Source: Acidovorax delafieldii (lineage in GTDB: Bacteria; Pseudomonadota; Gammaproteobacteria; Burkholderiales; Burkholderiaceae_C). From it: a stretch of 64,000 nt of DNA. Positions 44,450-48,697 of this stretch are shown piece by piece. Both the position numbers and the translations under genes were made by a program. Numbering within the stretch: position 1 is the first letter of the stretch; each line of letters starts with the position of its first letter. Under the pieces are notes generated by a model, which saw only the letters and a list, made by a program, of their open reading frames with translations, was not told the DNA's origin and did no database searches. The stretch lies in the NCBI RefSeq assembly GCF_007993815.1, contig NZ_VJWE01000014.1, forward strand, positions 310,001-374,000, read 5' to 3'.

Positions 44450-45076
44450 ATGAATGAGGCTTTGCGCATCGTGGTGGTTGCCCCGGATCTGGCAGTCGCC
44501 GACCCTGACGACGAACACGCCGTGGAGCAGGCGGAACGGTCGCGGGCGCTGCGCATCGGGCTGCTGGAGAACAACTTCAACCTGGTGGCCACGCTGCCCG
44601 CCGACGTGTTTCTGAGCGAGCGCATTGCCCAGCTGCAGCCTGACCTGATCATCGTGGACGCCGAGAGCGAGGCCCGCGACGCGCTGGAGCATGTGGTGAT
44701 GGCCACACGCGACGAACGCCGCCCCATCGTGATGTTCACCAACGATGAAGACACCTCGCACGTGAAGGACGCGGTGGCGGCCGGTGTGTCTGCCTATATC
44801 GTGGCAGGCTTGGCACCGCAGCGCATCCGCCCCATTCTGGACGTGGCCATGGCCCGCTTCCAGCACGAACAGGCCTTGCGCGCCGAGCTGGCCGACGCCA
44901 AGACCGAGCTCAAAGACCGCAAGACCATCGACCGCGCCAAGGGCCTGTTGATGCAGCGCCAGGGCCTGACCGAACAGGCCGCCTACGAGAAACTGCGCAA
45001 GACCGCCATGGACAAGGGCCTGAAGCTCGTGGACGTGGCTCAGCGCATGCTGGACGTGATGGATCTGCTGGGGTAA
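44450..45076 (+). CDS. nasT: NasT-like ANTAR-domain antitermination regulator
   Basis: A 208-aa two-domain protein. Residues 1-140 form a receiver-like domain: IIVDAES contains the Asp at the phospho-acceptor position, and IVMFTND the following strand, but the usual invariant Lys near YIVAGL is replaced, so it is a pseudo-receiver. The C-terminal ANTAR domain is TELKDRKTIDRAKGLLMQRQGLTEQAAYEKLRKTAMDKGLKLVDVAQRMLD, with the RAKG(L/I)LM core. ANTAR proteins bind RNA with two hexaloop hairpins and prevent termination. Such a target lies 330 bases downstream, in front of the nitrate transporter genes. In NasS-NasT systems the sensor NasS holds NasT in the absence of nitrate; no nasS is next to this gene. 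Start uncertain: ATG at 44438 and TTG at 44432 are also in frame. Confidence 0.88.
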   Translation: MNEALRIVVVAPDLAVADPDDEHAVEQAERSRALRIGLLENNFNLVATLPADVFLSERIAQLQPDLIIVDAESEARDALEHVVMATRDERRPIVMFTNDEDTSHVKDAVAAGVSAYIVAGLAPQRIRPILDVAMARFQHEQALRAELADAKTELKDRKTIDRAKGLLMQRQGLTEQAAYEKLRKTAMDKGLKLVDVAQRMLDVMDLLG

Positions 45077-45089
45077 AACCAGAGAACAA

Positions 45090-45195
45090 CCCCCTGAGCG
45101 GCTGCGCCGCTTCCCCCTTCTCTCGAATGACTGCGTCATTCGAGAGAAGGGGGACGATGCCCTCGCTGCGGGGCGGCCCTTGCTTGGCATCCCTC
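45090..45195 (+). repeat. Family B repeat, copy 2, with a 19-bp perfect hairpin
   Basis: Begins 13 bases after the nasT stop with CCCCCTGAGCGGCTGCGCCG. The nested arms CCCCCTTCTCTCGAATGAC (45113-45131) and their exact complement (45135-45153) leave a three-base loop. Then come GACGATGCCCTCGCTGCGGG and CTTGCTTGGCATCCCT, nearly identical to copy 1. Confidence 0.8.
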
Positions 45196-45408
45196 GCCTG
45201 GGCCGCGCCCAATTCCAAGGCCCCTCCCAAATGGTGCGCCGCACAAAGGCAGTGCGACCACACTGATCACAACAAGAACATCCCTGCTACAAGCCCCGCA
45301 GGCGTTTAGCGCTTATCAATCAACCGCAGACAGCTATCTATTCCACAGCAACCAACGCTCCAACATGGCGCAGCGCACGCTGGCACGCGCTTTGCATTGC
45401 ACAGTGCA

Positions 45409-45463
45409 AGACCAATGCAGGTCTGACCACTGACAGCACTGACCCAACGGCGGGCCGGTGCTG
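45409..45463 (+). ncRNA. Two-hairpin ANTAR (NasT) target in the nrtA leader
   Basis: Hairpin 1: AGACC (45409-45413), loop AATGCA, GGTCT (45420-45424). Hairpin 2: CAGCACTGACCC (45434-45445), loop AACGGC, GGGCCGGTGCTG (45452-45463), with one G-T pair and one mismatch. Both loops have six bases with A at position 1 and G at position 4, the pattern known for ANTAR-domain targets, and they are nine bases apart. A terminator at 45503-45576 follows before nrtA. Together with nasT upstream this fits transcription antitermination: NasT binding would let RNA polymerase pass into nrtABD when nitrate is present. Confidence 0.75.
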
Positions 45464-45502
45464 GCAAGGAGCCCCGGACCCGTTCCAGGCTCCAACCAGG
45501 AC

Positions 45503-45576
45503 AAAGGCGTCCCCACCCGCTCCCGGCGTTGCTTTGATGCAGCCGGGCGCGGTGTGAGGACGCCTTTTTTGTTTTT
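45503..45576 (+). terminator. Intrinsic terminator/attenuator in the nrtA leader
   Basis: AAAGGCGTCC (45503-45512) pairs with GGACGCCTTT (45558-45567), enclosing an inner CCCGGC/GCCGGG hairpin, and is followed by TTTTTTGTTTTT. It lies 20 bases before the nrtA start codon, upstream of the coding region, so it must be regulated rather than simply ending a gene. It is the probable switch controlled by the ANTAR target. Confidence 0.8.
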
Positions 45577-45596
45577 CACGCCACCAGGGATGCCCC

Positions 45597-46841
45597 ATGA
45601 CCGATCTGTTGAAAACCAGCCTCAACCGCCGCACCGTGCTGCAGGCCGCCACCGTGGGCGCTGTGGGTGTAAGCCCCGCGCTGCGCGCGCTCGTCCACGC
45701 AGCGGGCTCCGACGCCCCCGAGAAGAAGGAAGTCAAGATCGGCTTCATCCCGCTGACCGACTGCGCCAGCGTGGTCATGGCTTCGGTGCTGGGCTTCGAC
45801 AAGAAATACGGCGTGACCATCGTCCCCAACAAGGAAGCCAGCTGGGCCGGCGTGCGTGACAAGCTGGTGAACGGCGAACTGGACTTTGCCCATGTGCTCT
45901 ACGGCCTGGTCTATGGCGTGCATCTTGGCACCGCCGGTCCCAAGAAGGACATGGCCGTGCTGATGAACCTGAACAACAACGGTCAGGCCATCACCCTCTC
46001 CAAGGCCCTGGCCGACAAGGGTGCGGTGGATGGCCCGTCCCTGGCCAAGCTCATGGCCAGCGAGAAGCGTGAATACACATTTGCGGGCACCTTCCCCACC
46101 GGCACCCATGCAATGTGGATGCACTACTGGCTGGCAGCGGCGGGCATCAACCCGCTGTCGGGTGCCAAGCTCATCACCGTGCCCCCGCCGCAGATGGTGG
46201 CCAACATGCGCGTGGGCAACATGGACGGCTTTTGTGTGGGCGAGCCCTGGAACCACCGCGCCATCATGGATGGCATCGGCATCACGGCCAACACCACGCA
46301 GGACATCTGGAAGGACCATCCCGAGAAGGTACTGGGCACCACGGCCGAGTTCGTCAAGAAGTACCCCAACACTACGCGTGCCGTGATGATGGCCGTGCTC
46401 GAAGCCAGCCAGTGGATCGACGCCAGCCTGTCCAACAAGATGAAGATGGCCGAGACCGTGGCCGGCAAGGCGTATGTGAACACGGGCGTGGATGCCATCA
46501 ACCAGCGCATCCTGGGCCGCTACCAGAACGGTCTGGGCAAGACCTGGGACGACCCCAACCACATGAAGTTCTTCAACGACGGCGCGGTGAACTTCCCCTA
46601 CCTGTCGGACGGCATGTGGTTCCTGACCCAGCACAAGCGCTGGGGCTTGCTGAAGAGCCACCCCGACTACCTGGCCGTGGCCAAGGAAGTGAACCAGGTG
46701 GACCTGTACAAGTCGGTCGCCAGCGCCATGAAGATCAGCGTGCCCAAGGATGTGCTGCGCACCAGCAAATTCATCGACGGCGTGGTGTGGGACGGCAAGG
46801 ACCCCGCCAAGTACGCCGACGGCTTCAAGATCAAGGCCTGA
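45597..46841 (+). CDS. nrtA: Nitrate ABC transporter substrate-binding protein (NrtA/CmpA family)
   Basis: A 414-aa NrtA-like protein. The N-terminus SLNRRTVLQAATVGAVGVSPALRAL has a twin-arginine pattern, suggesting Tat export. The binding domain begins EVKIGFIPLTDCASVVMASVLGFDKKYGV and contains VPPPQMVANMRVGNMDGFCVGEPWNHRAI and TRAVMMAVLEASQWID, all NrtA/CmpA blocks. NasS sensors share this fold but lack export signals, so the Tat-like N-terminus argues for a transporter subunit. It captures nitrate (or nitrite; related proteins bind bicarbonate) for import by NrtB and NrtD encoded next. Its long leader carries the ANTAR target and a terminator. AGGGA lies about nine bases before the ATG. 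Confidence 0.9.
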   Translation: MTDLLKTSLNRRTVLQAATVGAVGVSPALRALVHAAGSDAPEKKEVKIGFIPLTDCASVVMASVLGFDKKYGVTIVPNKEASWAGVRDKLVNGELDFAHVLYGLVYGVHLGTAGPKKDMAVLMNLNNNGQAITLSKALADKGAVDGPSLAKLMASEKREYTFAGTFPTGTHAMWMHYWLAAAGINPLSGAKLITVPPPQMVANMRVGNMDGFCVGEPWNHRAIMDGIGITANTTQDIWKDHPEKVLGTTAEFVKKYPNTTRAVMMAVLEASQWIDASLSNKMKMAETVAGKAYVNTGVDAINQRILGRYQNGLGKTWDDPNHMKFFNDGAVNFPYLSDGMWFLTQHKRWGLLKSHPDYLAVAKEVNQVDLYKSVASAMKISVPKDVLRTSKFIDGVVWDGKDPAKYADGFKIKA

Positions 46842-46904: not shown

Positions 46905-47867
46905 ATGGTCAGTGCCGTCTTTCACTCCCCGTTGGATGCAGCCCCCGTGGCCGCACAGAATGCTATGAATACTGTAGCTGCAAGCGCATCATCCACTAGC
47001 GCAAGAAGCCAAAAGGCTGCGATATCTGCCCCCAAGGCACCTGCAACGCCCTCCAGCGTGGCCACTGGCCGCGACTGGTCCGCCCTCTCGCGCAGCTTCT
47101 GGCTGGCCGTGCTGCCGCCGCTGTGTGGCCTGGGCCTGCTCATCGGCCTGTGGGCGGTGGTCTCCACCACCACGGGCGGCAGCATCCCCAGCCCCAAGGA
47201 CACCTGGCTACAGGCGCTGGAAGTGTTCAGCAACCCCTTCTACCGCAACGGCCCCAACGACCAAGGCGTGGGCTGGAATGTGCTGATGAGCCTGCAGCGC
47301 GTGGCCATCGGCTTCGGCATGGCGGCGCTGGTGGGCATTCCGGCGGGGTTTGTGATCGGACGCTTCAACTTCCTGTCGCGCATGTTCAATCCGCTCATCA
47401 GCCTGCTGCGCCCAGTGTCGCCGCTGGCGTGGCTGCCGATCGGTCTGCTGGTCTTCAAGGGCGCCAACCCGGCGGCCATCTGGACCATCTTCATCTGCTC
47501 CATCTGGCCCATGATCATCAACACCGCCGTGGGTGTGCAGCGCGTACCGCAGGACTACATGAACGTAGCGCGCGTGCTCAACCTGAGCGAATGGAAGATC
47601 GCCACCAAGATCCTGTTCCCCTCCGTGCTGCCCTACATGCTGACCGGTGTGCGCCTGGCCGTGGGCACCGCGTGGCTGGTGATCGTGGCGGCCGAGATGC
47701 TGACCGGCGGCGTGGGCATCGGCTTCTGGGTGTGGGACGAGTGGAACAACCTCAACGTCAAGAACATCATCATCGCAATCTTCGTGATCGGCATCGTCGG
47801 GCTGCTGCTGGAGTTTGCACTCATCAAGCTGGCCACCGCATTTACGTTTGAAGAGGTGAAAGCATGA
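46905..47867 (+). CDS. nrtB: Nitrate ABC transporter permease (NrtB type)
   Basis: A 320-aa permease. After an N-terminal cytoplasmic tail of about 70 residues come six helices; WLAVLPPLCGLGLLIGLWAVVSTTTGG begins the membrane part, and MSLQRVAIGFGMAALVGIPAGFVIGRF, FKGANPAAIWTIFICSIWPMIINTAVGVQ and the EAA-type loop VARVLNLSEWKIATKILFPSVLPYMLTGVRLAVGTAWLVIVAAEML are typical of NrtB/SsuC permeases. The tail is Ala/Ser-rich and part of it (residues 19-38) is encoded by a family A repeat, which may have been gained recently. AGGAG precedes the ATG. It overlaps the nrtD start by four bases (ATGA). Confidence 0.9.
   Translation: MVSAVFHSPLDAAPVAAQNAMNTVAASASSTSARSQKAAISAPKAPATPSSVATGRDWSALSRSFWLAVLPPLCGLGLLIGLWAVVSTTTGGSIPSPKDTWLQALEVFSNPFYRNGPNDQGVGWNVLMSLQRVAIGFGMAALVGIPAGFVIGRFNFLSRMFNPLISLLRPVSPLAWLPIGLLVFKGANPAAIWTIFICSIWPMIINTAVGVQRVPQDYMNVARVLNLSEWKIATKILFPSVLPYMLTGVRLAVGTAWLVIVAAEMLTGGVGIGFWVWDEWNNLNVKNIIIAIFVIGIVGLLLEFALIKLATAFTFEEVKA
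46961..47017 (+). repeat. Family A repeat, copy 6, inside nrtB
   Basis: GCTATGAATACTGTAGCTGC, then AAGCGCATCATCCACTAGCGC and AAGAAGCCAAAA. All family blocks are present in order. It is in frame within nrtB codons 19-38 and encodes part of the Ala/Ser-rich cytoplasmic tail. Confidence 0.7.
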
Positions 47868-48697
47868 ACACGACAGCTCCATCCACCCACCCTTCCATGA
47901 GCACCAAGTTCATCGAGATCCACAGGGTCGAGCAGACCTTCAAGACGGCCAAGGGCCTGTTCCCGGCGCTGCGCGACATTCACCTGACGATTGCCAAGGG
48001 CGAGTTCGTGGCGCTCATCGGCCACTCGGGCTGCGGCAAGTCCACCTTGCTCAACCTGATTGCCGGCCTGACCACGCCCACCAACGGCGCGCTGCTGTGC
48101 GCCAACAAGGAGATCAAGGGCCCGGGGCCGGAGCGCGCGGTGGTGTTCCAGAACCACTCGCTGCTGCCCTGGCTCACCTGCTTTGACAACATCTACCTGG
48201 CCGTGGAGCGCGTGTTTGGCGCCAAGGAAACCAAAGCCCAACTCAAGGCCCGCACCGACGCCGCACTGGCGCTGGTGGGCCTGACCCACGCGGGGCAAAA
48301 ACGCCCCGGTGAAATCTCGGGCGGCATGAAGCAGCGCGTGGGCATCGCCCGGGCCCTGAGCATGGAGCCCCAGGTGCTGCTGATGGACGAGCCCTTCGGC
48401 GCGCTCGACGCCCTGACCCGCGCCAAGCTGCAGGACGAGTTGCTGGAGATCGTGGCGCGCACCCAAAGCACCGTGGTGATGGTGACCCACGACGTGGACG
48501 AAGCCGTGCTGCTGTCCGACAAGATCGTGATGATGACCAACGGCCCGGCCGCCACGATTGGCGAGGTGCTGACCGTGGACTTGCCCCGCCCCCGCAAGCG
48601 CGTGGAGCTGGCCGAGGACCCGCAGTATGTGCACTACCGCAAGGCGGTGATCGACTTTTTGTACACCCGGCAGGGGCATGTCGAGAAGGCGGCCTGA
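47864..48697 (+). CDS. nrtD: Nitrate ABC transporter ATPase (NrtD type)
   Basis: A 277-aa ABC ATPase. Walker A GHSGCGKST, Q-loop VVFQNHSLLPWLTCFDNIYLAV, signature EISGGMKQRVGIARALSMEP, Walker B VLLMDEPFGALDALTRAKLQDELLEI and switch VTHDVDEAVLLSDKIVMMTNGPAATIGEV. The LLPWLT and PFGALDALTR blocks are diagnostic of the NrtD/SsuB/TauB group. It energises the NrtAB importer. Unlike cyanobacterial NrtC it has no fused binding domain. Last gene of the nrtABD operon; no clear terminator was seen before the next gene. Confidence 0.92.
   Translation: MNTTAPSTHPSMSTKFIEIHRVEQTFKTAKGLFPALRDIHLTIAKGEFVALIGHSGCGKSTLLNLIAGLTTPTNGALLCANKEIKGPGPERAVVFQNHSLLPWLTCFDNIYLAVERVFGAKETKAQLKARTDAALALVGLTHAGQKRPGEISGGMKQRVGIARALSMEPQVLLMDEPFGALDALTRAKLQDELLEIVARTQSTVVMVTHDVDEAVLLSDKIVMMTNGPAATIGEVLTVDLPRPRKRVELAEDPQYVHYRKAVIDFLYTRQGHVEKAA

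Follow-up and report, generated by a model that had tools for sequence, protein, structure and literature searches.

The question raised by this locus is how the nitrate transport genes nrtABD are controlled through the RNA that precedes them, and which elements of this RNA form the switch. In the window (the whole stretch of 64,000 nucleotides of Acidovorax delafieldii DNA that was analysed), the gene order is nasT, then nrtA, nrtB and nrtD. For the leader between nasT and nrtA, a first-pass annotation had described two hairpins nine nucleotides apart, both with six-base loops that carry A at position 1 and G at position 4 (A1/G4 hexaloops), an intrinsic terminator with a T-run 20 nucleotides before nrtA, and a GGAGCC...GGCTCC hairpin. 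All of these elements were read directly in the sequence (Table 1), but the inventory was incomplete, as a third A1/G4 hexaloop hairpin, H3, had been overlooked. We hold it to be highly probable that the nrtABD leader acts as an antitermination switch of the ANTAR type, with three hexaloops and NasT as its regulator. Judged from the sequence, the core pair is most likely formed by H2 and H3, which would correspond to P1 and P2 of known ANTAR RNAs, with H1 as an extra hexaloop at the 5' terminus.

Table 1. Features of the nasT-nrtABD region, in positions of the window
Feature	Position	Strand	Description
nasT	44450..45076	+	receiver-like and ANTAR antiterminator protein, 208 aa
NtrC-like palindrome GCAC-N7-GTGC	45241..45255	+	putative activator site 5' of the sigma-54 promoter
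sigma-54-type (-24/-12) promoter TGGCAC-GCGCT-TTGC	45381..45395	+	sequence pattern
H1 hexaloop hairpin AGACC-AATGCA-GGTCT	45409..45424	+	5'-terminal in the predicted transcript; additional hexaloop
H2 long hexaloop hairpin (P1/recruitment)	45434..45463	+	loop AACGGC, 45446-45451
Spacer hairpin GGAGCC...GGCTCC	45468..45493	+	folded H2-H3 linker, non-hexaloop
H3 hexaloop hairpin GGAC-AAAGGC-GTCC (P2/antiterminator)	45499..45512	+	conserved across relatives
Intrinsic terminator	45503..45576	+	5' arm AAAGGCGTCC, 45503-45512; 3' arm GGACGCCTTT, 45558-45567
nrtA	45597..46841	+	nitrate-type substrate-binding protein; Pfam NMT1_2, E 7.9e-100
nrtB	46905..47867	+	nitrate ABC transporter permease; NCBIfam ntrB above cut-off
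nrtD	47864..48697	+	nitrate ABC transporter ATPase; NCBIfam ntrCD above cut-off

In a profile search, the ANTAR domain of NasT was matched with a Pfam E of 1.6e-20, and the Response_reg match fell under the cut-off. The sequence relatives of NasT with structures include 1s8n, the EutV-type protein 6wsh, NasR (4akk) and AmiR (1qo0). Its receiver lacks the usual lysine (AYIVAGL, as compared to AYLVKPF in the protein used for comparison) and is pseudo-receiver-like. The identical protein is encoded by a metagenome-assembled genome of Acidovorax, and NasT of A. temperans shares 99.5% identity with it. Its gene, which adjoins the leader, was the sole ANTAR gene found in the source genome (5.0 Mb). 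NrtA, the first product of the operon, carries at its N-terminus an RR (Tat-like) signal sequence, as judged by eye. We also noticed, between nasT and the sigma-54-type site, a perfect inverted repeat with 19-base arms and a 3-base loop (45113-45153, CCCCCTTCTCTCGAATGAC...), possibly the terminator of nasT or a repeated element.

For comparison, relatives were gathered by NasT similarity and their nasT-nrtA gaps were scanned. This yielded 66 leaders, namely the window and 65 relatives; since the relatives share ancestry, counts over these 66 are not counts of independent events. The relatives were drawn from 80 loci, of which 15 gave no leader: 14 had no nrtA match and one, L056, had an incomplete nrtA start. 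A covariance model of the leader, R1, recovers it in L056 and in another of the dropped loci, L020, and in 4 of the 15 the sequence ends less than 0.9 kb past nasT. For nine relatives (L026, L032, L034, L037, L041, L043, L044, L045 and L061), 3.8-6 kb of sequence follows nasT, and neither nrtA nor the leader was found near it there; these count against the universality of the arrangement. One of them, L034, has a SulP-like transporter frame 3' of nasT (by eye). Among the 65 relatives used, nasT and nrtA are separated by more than 1 kb in five (L046, L053, L066, L070 and L076), and the nrtA start of L069 does not read as ATG.

Of the three hexaloops, H3 shows the strongest conservation. Its 4-bp stem is present in 66/66 leaders; in its loop, G4 is kept in all of them and A1 in 63, with G in the first place in the other three. 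Loops that begin with G and keep G4 (GAAGGC, GTTGGC) were observed in L073, L077, L082, L093 and L095. In the EutV complex, as described in the accessible parts of the study, A1 makes no specific contact, which is compatible with G-first H3 loops (PMC8934654). The loop and 3' arm of H3 double as the 5' arm of the terminator (45503-45512), in which GGACGCC (45558-45564) is followed by the U-run TTTTTTGTTTTT (45565-45576), the nrtA start at 45597 lying 20 nucleotides further on. Since the GTCC strand is common to H3 and the terminator, the two pairings are mutually exclusive. Both pairings are kept in every one of the 66 leaders, at 4/4 positions for H3 and 7/7 for the terminator, with G-U counted as a pair. 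In eight leaders, each of them labelled Polaromonas, the H3 stem is GAAC/GTTC and the terminator arm reads GAGCGCC (five), GAACGCC (two) or GGACGCC (one); pairing is exact in two of these and includes a G-U in the other six. The H3 stem is otherwise nearly invariant, and its covariation support comes from few events. It had been suggested at first pass that the mutual exclusion may not be a simple overlap. This doubt arose because H3 was missed, and the overlap of H3 with the terminator in all the leaders speaks against it.

The competition between the two pairings was also seen in the predicted folds. In prefix folding, H3 is predicted to be closed at 45512 and to be displaced once 45562-45566 have been made. 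At full length, the fold with H3 forced was predicted at -75.4 as compared to -90.1, that is, at a cost of 14.7 kcal/mol. As the H3 state is weaker by this amount, something must stabilise H3, and this modelled folding pattern is what a switch that requires a stabilising protein should look like.

Upstream of H3, the stem of H2 is formed by 45434-45445 and 45452-45463, with one A.C mismatch, and the gap between H1 and H2 is 9 nt. In the minimum-free-energy fold of 45380-45600, H1 and H2 are formed together with the spacer hairpin and the terminator (z = -5.9; 0/200 shuffles were as stable). H2 was found in 66/66 leaders by the loose rule of our script and in 64 by eye, the loops of L036 and L064 being non-canonical. 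H1 was scored as canonical where an A1/G4 hexaloop with a stem of at least 4 bp occurred in a 7-position slot. By this rule it is present in 49/66 leaders, as compared to 0.8% of 13,200 dinucleotide shuffles; in shuffles, a hairpin of at least 3 bp in the H2 slot occurred in 10.7%, H1 and H2 jointly in 0.08%, and three hexaloops with at least 4 bp each in 0 of 13,200. A test for any hairpin near the 5' end (at least 4 bp, loop of 3-8 nt) was discarded, as 62/66 leaders passed it but so did 60% of shuffles. All three hexaloops are canonical by the script's rule in 46/66 leaders. This count includes L036, whose H2 is a 3-bp match due to chance, and misses L063, where H1 is shifted. The slot rule leaves 17 leaders in which H1 is non-canonical or absent, with L063 and L064 among them carrying a shifted H1. 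On the NasT tree, the H1 label changes 10 times (bootstrap 8-11), of which well-supported branches force 3. In five Polaromonas leaders, only 44-49 nt separate +1 from H3; these leaders lack H1 but retain H2 and H3.

Covariation was examined in alignment A2, which holds 21 leaders picked for H1 and H2 and for the lack of a spacer, so that its counts lean towards structure; L076 (misaligned), L035 and L080 were excluded. Over the three stems, 95.2% of cells were paired and 8/14 pairs had changed on both sides. The covariation score was 0.429, as compared to 0.164 in shuffled alignments (0/500) and at most 0.148 in slid ones. Of five covariation measures one, further pair types, was not above shuffles (17 vs 16.8). 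Relatedness by itself can beat shuffles, and the slid control is therefore the weightier one. Folding and covariation across relatives had been named at first pass as the way to check the leader, and both came out in its favour. The accompanying expectation that homologous leaders keep the two hexaloops and the terminator was borne out for the terminator and, in nearly all leaders, for H2, but only in part for H1.

The GGAGCC...GGCTCC hairpin appears to have a different role from the one first proposed for it. Such a spacer occurs in 23/66 leaders, mostly labelled Acidovorax, and every one folds as a hairpin, although the sequences diverge (GGAGCC/GGCTCC, CAAAGCCC/GGGCTTTG, TGCCAGGC/GCTTGGCA, CAAAACCC/GGGTTTTG and others); in L069, a longer segment folds differently from the spacer alone. 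Fifteen of 19 distinct spacers beat 99% of single-base shuffles, and four fail the test (fractions 0.04, 0.04, 0.08 and 0.3). In the window, the linker between H2 and H3 has 35 nt (45464-45498), of which 26 are folded as the hairpin and 4+5 are unpaired. The distance between the H2 and H3 loops is 26-37 nt in leaders without the spacer and 45-57 nt in those with it, the window standing at 57. The ANTAR RNA definition, in the part of the source that was available, gives an inter-hairpin linker of 2-25 nt (PMC8164766), so the H1-H2 gap falls inside this range and the bare H2-H3 linker outside it. For EutV, the addition of 20 linker nucleotides is described as abolishing antitermination in vitro (PMC8934654, available in part). 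The long H2-H3 linker of the window would then be tolerated only if its effective length is reduced by the spacer hairpin, and a linker kept short through folding fits the reported spacing constraint. The first-pass suggestion that this hairpin is the antiterminator link was given up: it is neither an ANTAR hexaloop nor an antiterminator arm but a spacer, absent from 43/66 leaders and divergent in sequence where present.

The promoter ahead of the leader was assigned by its resemblance to the sigma-54 (-24/-12) consensus, and the position of +1 deduced from it is about 45407, two bases 5' of H1. With the pattern slightly relaxed, a site TGGCAC-N5-TTGC lies ahead of the hairpins in 66/66 leaders; in those scored for both elements, it stands 17-21 nt 5' of the loop of H1. 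A search of 45000-45700 for a sigma-70-like site found none. Further upstream, the palindrome GCAC-N7-GTGC is read as a putative activator site on the basis of its resemblance to the NtrC consensus; it occurs no more than 250 nt 5' of +1 in 61/66 leaders, a count that has no shuffle baseline.

Related leaders were found beyond nrtA as well. Model R1 was built from the 21 relatives of alignment A2, with no sequence of the source genome included. In that genome it matched the leader of nirB (C4:380932-381002, E 3.3e-6), the nrtA leader (E 8.5e-6) and, as a third site, the leader of a NarK-family transporter (C4:377408-377476, E 1.5e-4), the next-best match having an E of 5.9; matches with E >5 (L096, L097) contain no hexaloops and were regarded as chance. 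Both sister leaders lie outside the window, past its end, and the genes behind them were identified as nirB (NCBIfam E 5.6e-278) and a transporter with a TIGR00886 match under the cut-off (E 1.6e-66). They are less canonical than the nrtA leader: the script finds one A1/G4 hexaloop in each (H2 for nirB, H1 for the transporter), both H3 loops start with G, and the nirB leader has a four-base loop at H1 (by eye). The nirB site is unlisted in the multi-genome R1 runs, which used stricter filters. Matches to R1 were obtained in 90/250 family genomes and 21/274 class genomes; a NasT homologue (E <= 1e-20) is present in 17/21 R1-positive class genomes as compared to 61/274 overall (Fisher p 3e-9). 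Three hexaloops were counted by hand in 21 of the 30 best-scoring family matches, a set biased to triples. Distant three-hexaloop leaders (L110, L115) precede NrtA-like proteins (by eye), and one match in the class sample (L116) was judged by eye to be spurious.

In the neighbourhood beyond the window, between nirB and a nasA-type nitrate reductase, we noticed a 270-aa protein (L118:9565-10377) with two PilJ stretches (PF13675, E 2.4e-25) and what looks like a signal peptide. Nitrate is a ligand of PilJ domains in certain receptors, and this protein might be a nitrate-linked sensor. A second frame (L118:15855-16688), which follows cobA where the nirB-nasA cluster ends, gave MCP-signal and PilJ matches, both below the Pfam cut-offs.

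An Rfam search of the whole window at gathering thresholds returned no match. In a permissive scan, the leader matched the narK RNA (RF03032) at 19 bits, below the gathering score of 43.2, so it is not a filed member of that family, although it resembles it and probably works in a similar way; other permissive matches (microRNA, prion-pseudoknot, SAM-IV) were judged to be chance. A gathering-level scan of 20 loci, including the three leaders of the source genome, likewise gave no narK match; the same scan returned a TPP riboswitch, which is unrelated. RF03032 is, as we understand it, an orphan cis-regulatory family. Its consensus consists of GGCaCAgcucUUGC, then CC-AACGGC-GG in the lone annotated helix, then CGAC-AAAGAC-GUCG, the equivalent of H3, which the structure line of Rfam leaves unpaired. 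As far as can be read from the sequence, this consensus, with GGCaC-N5-UUGC first, would represent a sigma-54-like promoter followed by H2 and H3. The window matches it in the same order, with GGCAC...TTGC (45382-45395), an AACGGC-type hairpin (45434-45463) and an AAAGNC hairpin (45499-45512), and adds H1 and the spacer, both of which are missing from the Rfam model.

Over the 250 family genomes, the RF03032 model gave 26 matches at E <= 1e-3, none above the Rfam threshold, and 15 of them coincide with R1 matches. Both hexaloops (first base A or G) were found by script in 23/26, and H3 was found by eye in the other three; a third hexaloop before H2 and H3 occurs in one (L202). In all 26 genomes the leader is immediately preceded by a NasT/ANTAR gene, which is encoded on the same strand and lies within 200 nt of it. 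All six proteins picked for their long frame contain NIT and ANTAR domains, i.e. are NasR-like. Such NIT-ANTAR genes stand directly 5' of narK-type leaders in L222-L227, and NasT genes do so elsewhere in the family; this alternation amounts to an exchange of regulators acting on one kind of RNA. In the class, 15/369 genomes match RF03032. Two of these pass the Rfam threshold, both with both hexaloops, and their leaders precede NarK-family transporters (TIGR00886, E 1.6e-93, over the cut-off, and 9e-78, under it); both genomes carry NasT, which in one of them ends 154 nt upstream of the leader. A few weaker class matches look spurious (L216, L220), and in another narK-model match, L215, H2 is present and H3 absent. 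The narK RNA is thus very probably an ANTAR leader, and the sequence comparison gives it a likely class of regulator, NasT or the NIT-ANTAR protein NasR. It also suggests that the RF03032 model mixes a DNA promoter signal with an unannotated hairpin. The literature searched, which did not cover the family-defining paper, contains no mention of "narK RNA" or "RF03032".

We propose that the switch would operate as follows. RNA polymerase with sigma-54, probably activated by NtrC and so under nitrogen limitation, would start at about 45407. The RNA would thus open with H1 at its very 5' terminus, and H2, the folded spacer and H3 would emerge after it. When active NasT is absent, the terminator GGAC would capture the GTCC arm of H3 and transcription would stop before nrtA. 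Active NasT, with nitrate as its activating signal by analogy, would bind the hexaloops in order, H1 and/or H2 serving for recruitment and H3 as the antiterminator hairpin; by holding H3 closed, it would allow nrtABD to be read through. NasT binding, the signal, the binding order and the role of H1 are what we infer in this scheme, in which H1 could lengthen the time window for NasT loading. The antitermination mechanism has been established with EutV, and there is support for it in the case of NasR (PMC3369931, PMC8934654, PMC7496416); in known ANTAR RNAs P2 overlaps the terminator (PMC3369931, PMC7496416). For EutV, it is argued that the dimer engages a single hexaloop at any one time, P1 serving to recruit it and P2 to antiterminate (PMC8934654).

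Three other explanations were weighed against this scheme. It could be argued that there is no switch, and that a plain terminator, certainly strong and situated between nasT and nrtA, deals with readthrough from nasT while the hexaloops are coincidental. We find this scarcely credible, as each of the 66 leaders has its sigma-54-type site downstream of nasT and upstream of the terminator, so that a transcript begun there must pass the terminator, the hexaloops covary, and related leaders precede NarK-family genes and nirB, with R1 matching in more than a third of the family genomes. The first-pass annotation had recognised an ANTAR-type leader with nasT adjacent, and this holds, with nasT as the only ANTAR gene and 65 relatives in support; its choice of H1 and H2 as the operative pair does not. 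With that pair, the GGAGCC hairpin or some other element would have to relay the signal to a terminator that does not overlap it. The two A1/G4 hairpins are indeed just 9 nt apart in the window, and they are the closer pair in spacer-bearing leaders. Yet this arrangement is very unlikely: H1 is non-canonical or absent in 17/66 leaders, with 10 state changes, the Polaromonas leaders with the short +1-to-H3 distance do without it, most leaders have no spacer hairpin, and a third hexaloop is seen in just 1/26 RF03032 matches. H1 is left out of the core pair because it is canonical in 49/66 leaders and changes repeatedly, while the H3 stem is found in 66/66.

The same variability of H1, together with its lack in most narK-model matches and the four-base loop at its place in the nirB leader of the same genome, may alternatively indicate that NasT binds H2 and H3 alone, whereas H1 protects or shapes the RNA and its A1/G4 loop is inherited but unused. 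This is a possibility that we take seriously, though we are inclined to doubt it. A mere 5' hairpin needs no A1/G4 loop, and such a loop is kept in 49/66 leaders, far above the 0.8% in shuffles, with compensatory changes in its stem. We retain the switch with three hexaloops, in which H2 and H3 would form the core and H1 would be an additional site.

In other bacteria, NasS keeps hold of NasT up to the point at which nitrate is bound (PMC3795266). In the source genome, whose assembly was scored 100% complete, NasS, an NrtA-like protein with no signal peptide, was not found with an NrtA query or with a NasS-like query from another genome. Both queries return only NrtA and one other homologue (C1:536532-537638), which has a signal sequence by eye, and these two are also the only strong matches in a family profile search; the homologue sits beside a NarL-like regulator frame. 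As a positive control, nine NasS-like neighbours of nasT elsewhere, signal-less by eye and 34-55% identical to NrtA, were found with NrtA as the query. The failure to find NasS weighs against nitrate as the input in the scheme above, and the leader points to NasT regulators that would lack the known nitrate sensor. A speculative solution, which we regard as improbable, would be a three-step ANTAR relay from H1 to H2 to H3, with NasT loaded at the 5' end and gated by the Tat-type precursor of NrtA instead of NasS. Our guess is that this precursor would reach its folded state in the cytoplasm, prior to export; the identity between NrtA and the NasS-like proteins of other genomes reaches 55%. If this were true, the first product of the operon would report nitrate to its own leader.

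With respect to known systems, an ANTAR target RNA is defined, in the available portions of the sources, by at least two hexaloop hairpins with A1/G4 and stems of at least 3 bp (PMC3369931, PMC8164766). The leader of the window has H1, H2 and H3 of this kind, an overlap of H3 with the terminator and one adjacent ANTAR gene, the only one in the genome. It shares with the eutP, nasF and amiE leaders the A1/G4 hexaloops, of which the downstream one overlaps the terminator, and the ANTAR gene (PMC3369931, PMC8934654). It differs from them, as they are described in the sections consulted, in having three hexaloops rather than two, of which the first is 5'-terminal, and a folded spacer between H2 and H3. 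The Klebsiella nasF/NasR system likewise combines a nitrate assimilation operon with ANTAR attenuation at a two-hairpin motif (PMC7496416, seen in part), whereas the window has three hexaloops and a receiver-ANTAR protein, NasT, without the nitrate-sensing NIT domain. In the NasS-NasT systems of Paracoccus, Azotobacter and Bradyrhizobium, the accessible text has NasT acting on the leaders of nitrate/nitrite genes (PMC3795266, PMC5424462, PMC6759348), as proposed here; the genome of the window has the receiver-like and ANTAR protein NasT, but NasS was not found.

In the literature searched, parts of PMC8131098 and PMC12316311 among it and an Azotobacter NasT paper and the paper defining the narK RNA outside it, we came across no description of three hexaloops before nitrate genes. 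Thus the kind of system is known, and what seems to be new, on the evidence of sequence comparison, comprises three hexaloops in one leader, a linker that is folded, the connection with the narK RNA and the missing NasS. How the ANTAR dimer uses the hexaloops is an open issue in the field, and EutV is reported to be sensitive to linker length (PMC8934654, in the part available). With its expendable third hexaloop and a naturally folded linker, the nrtABD leader makes the model of hexaloop use derived from EutV testable with simple mutants.
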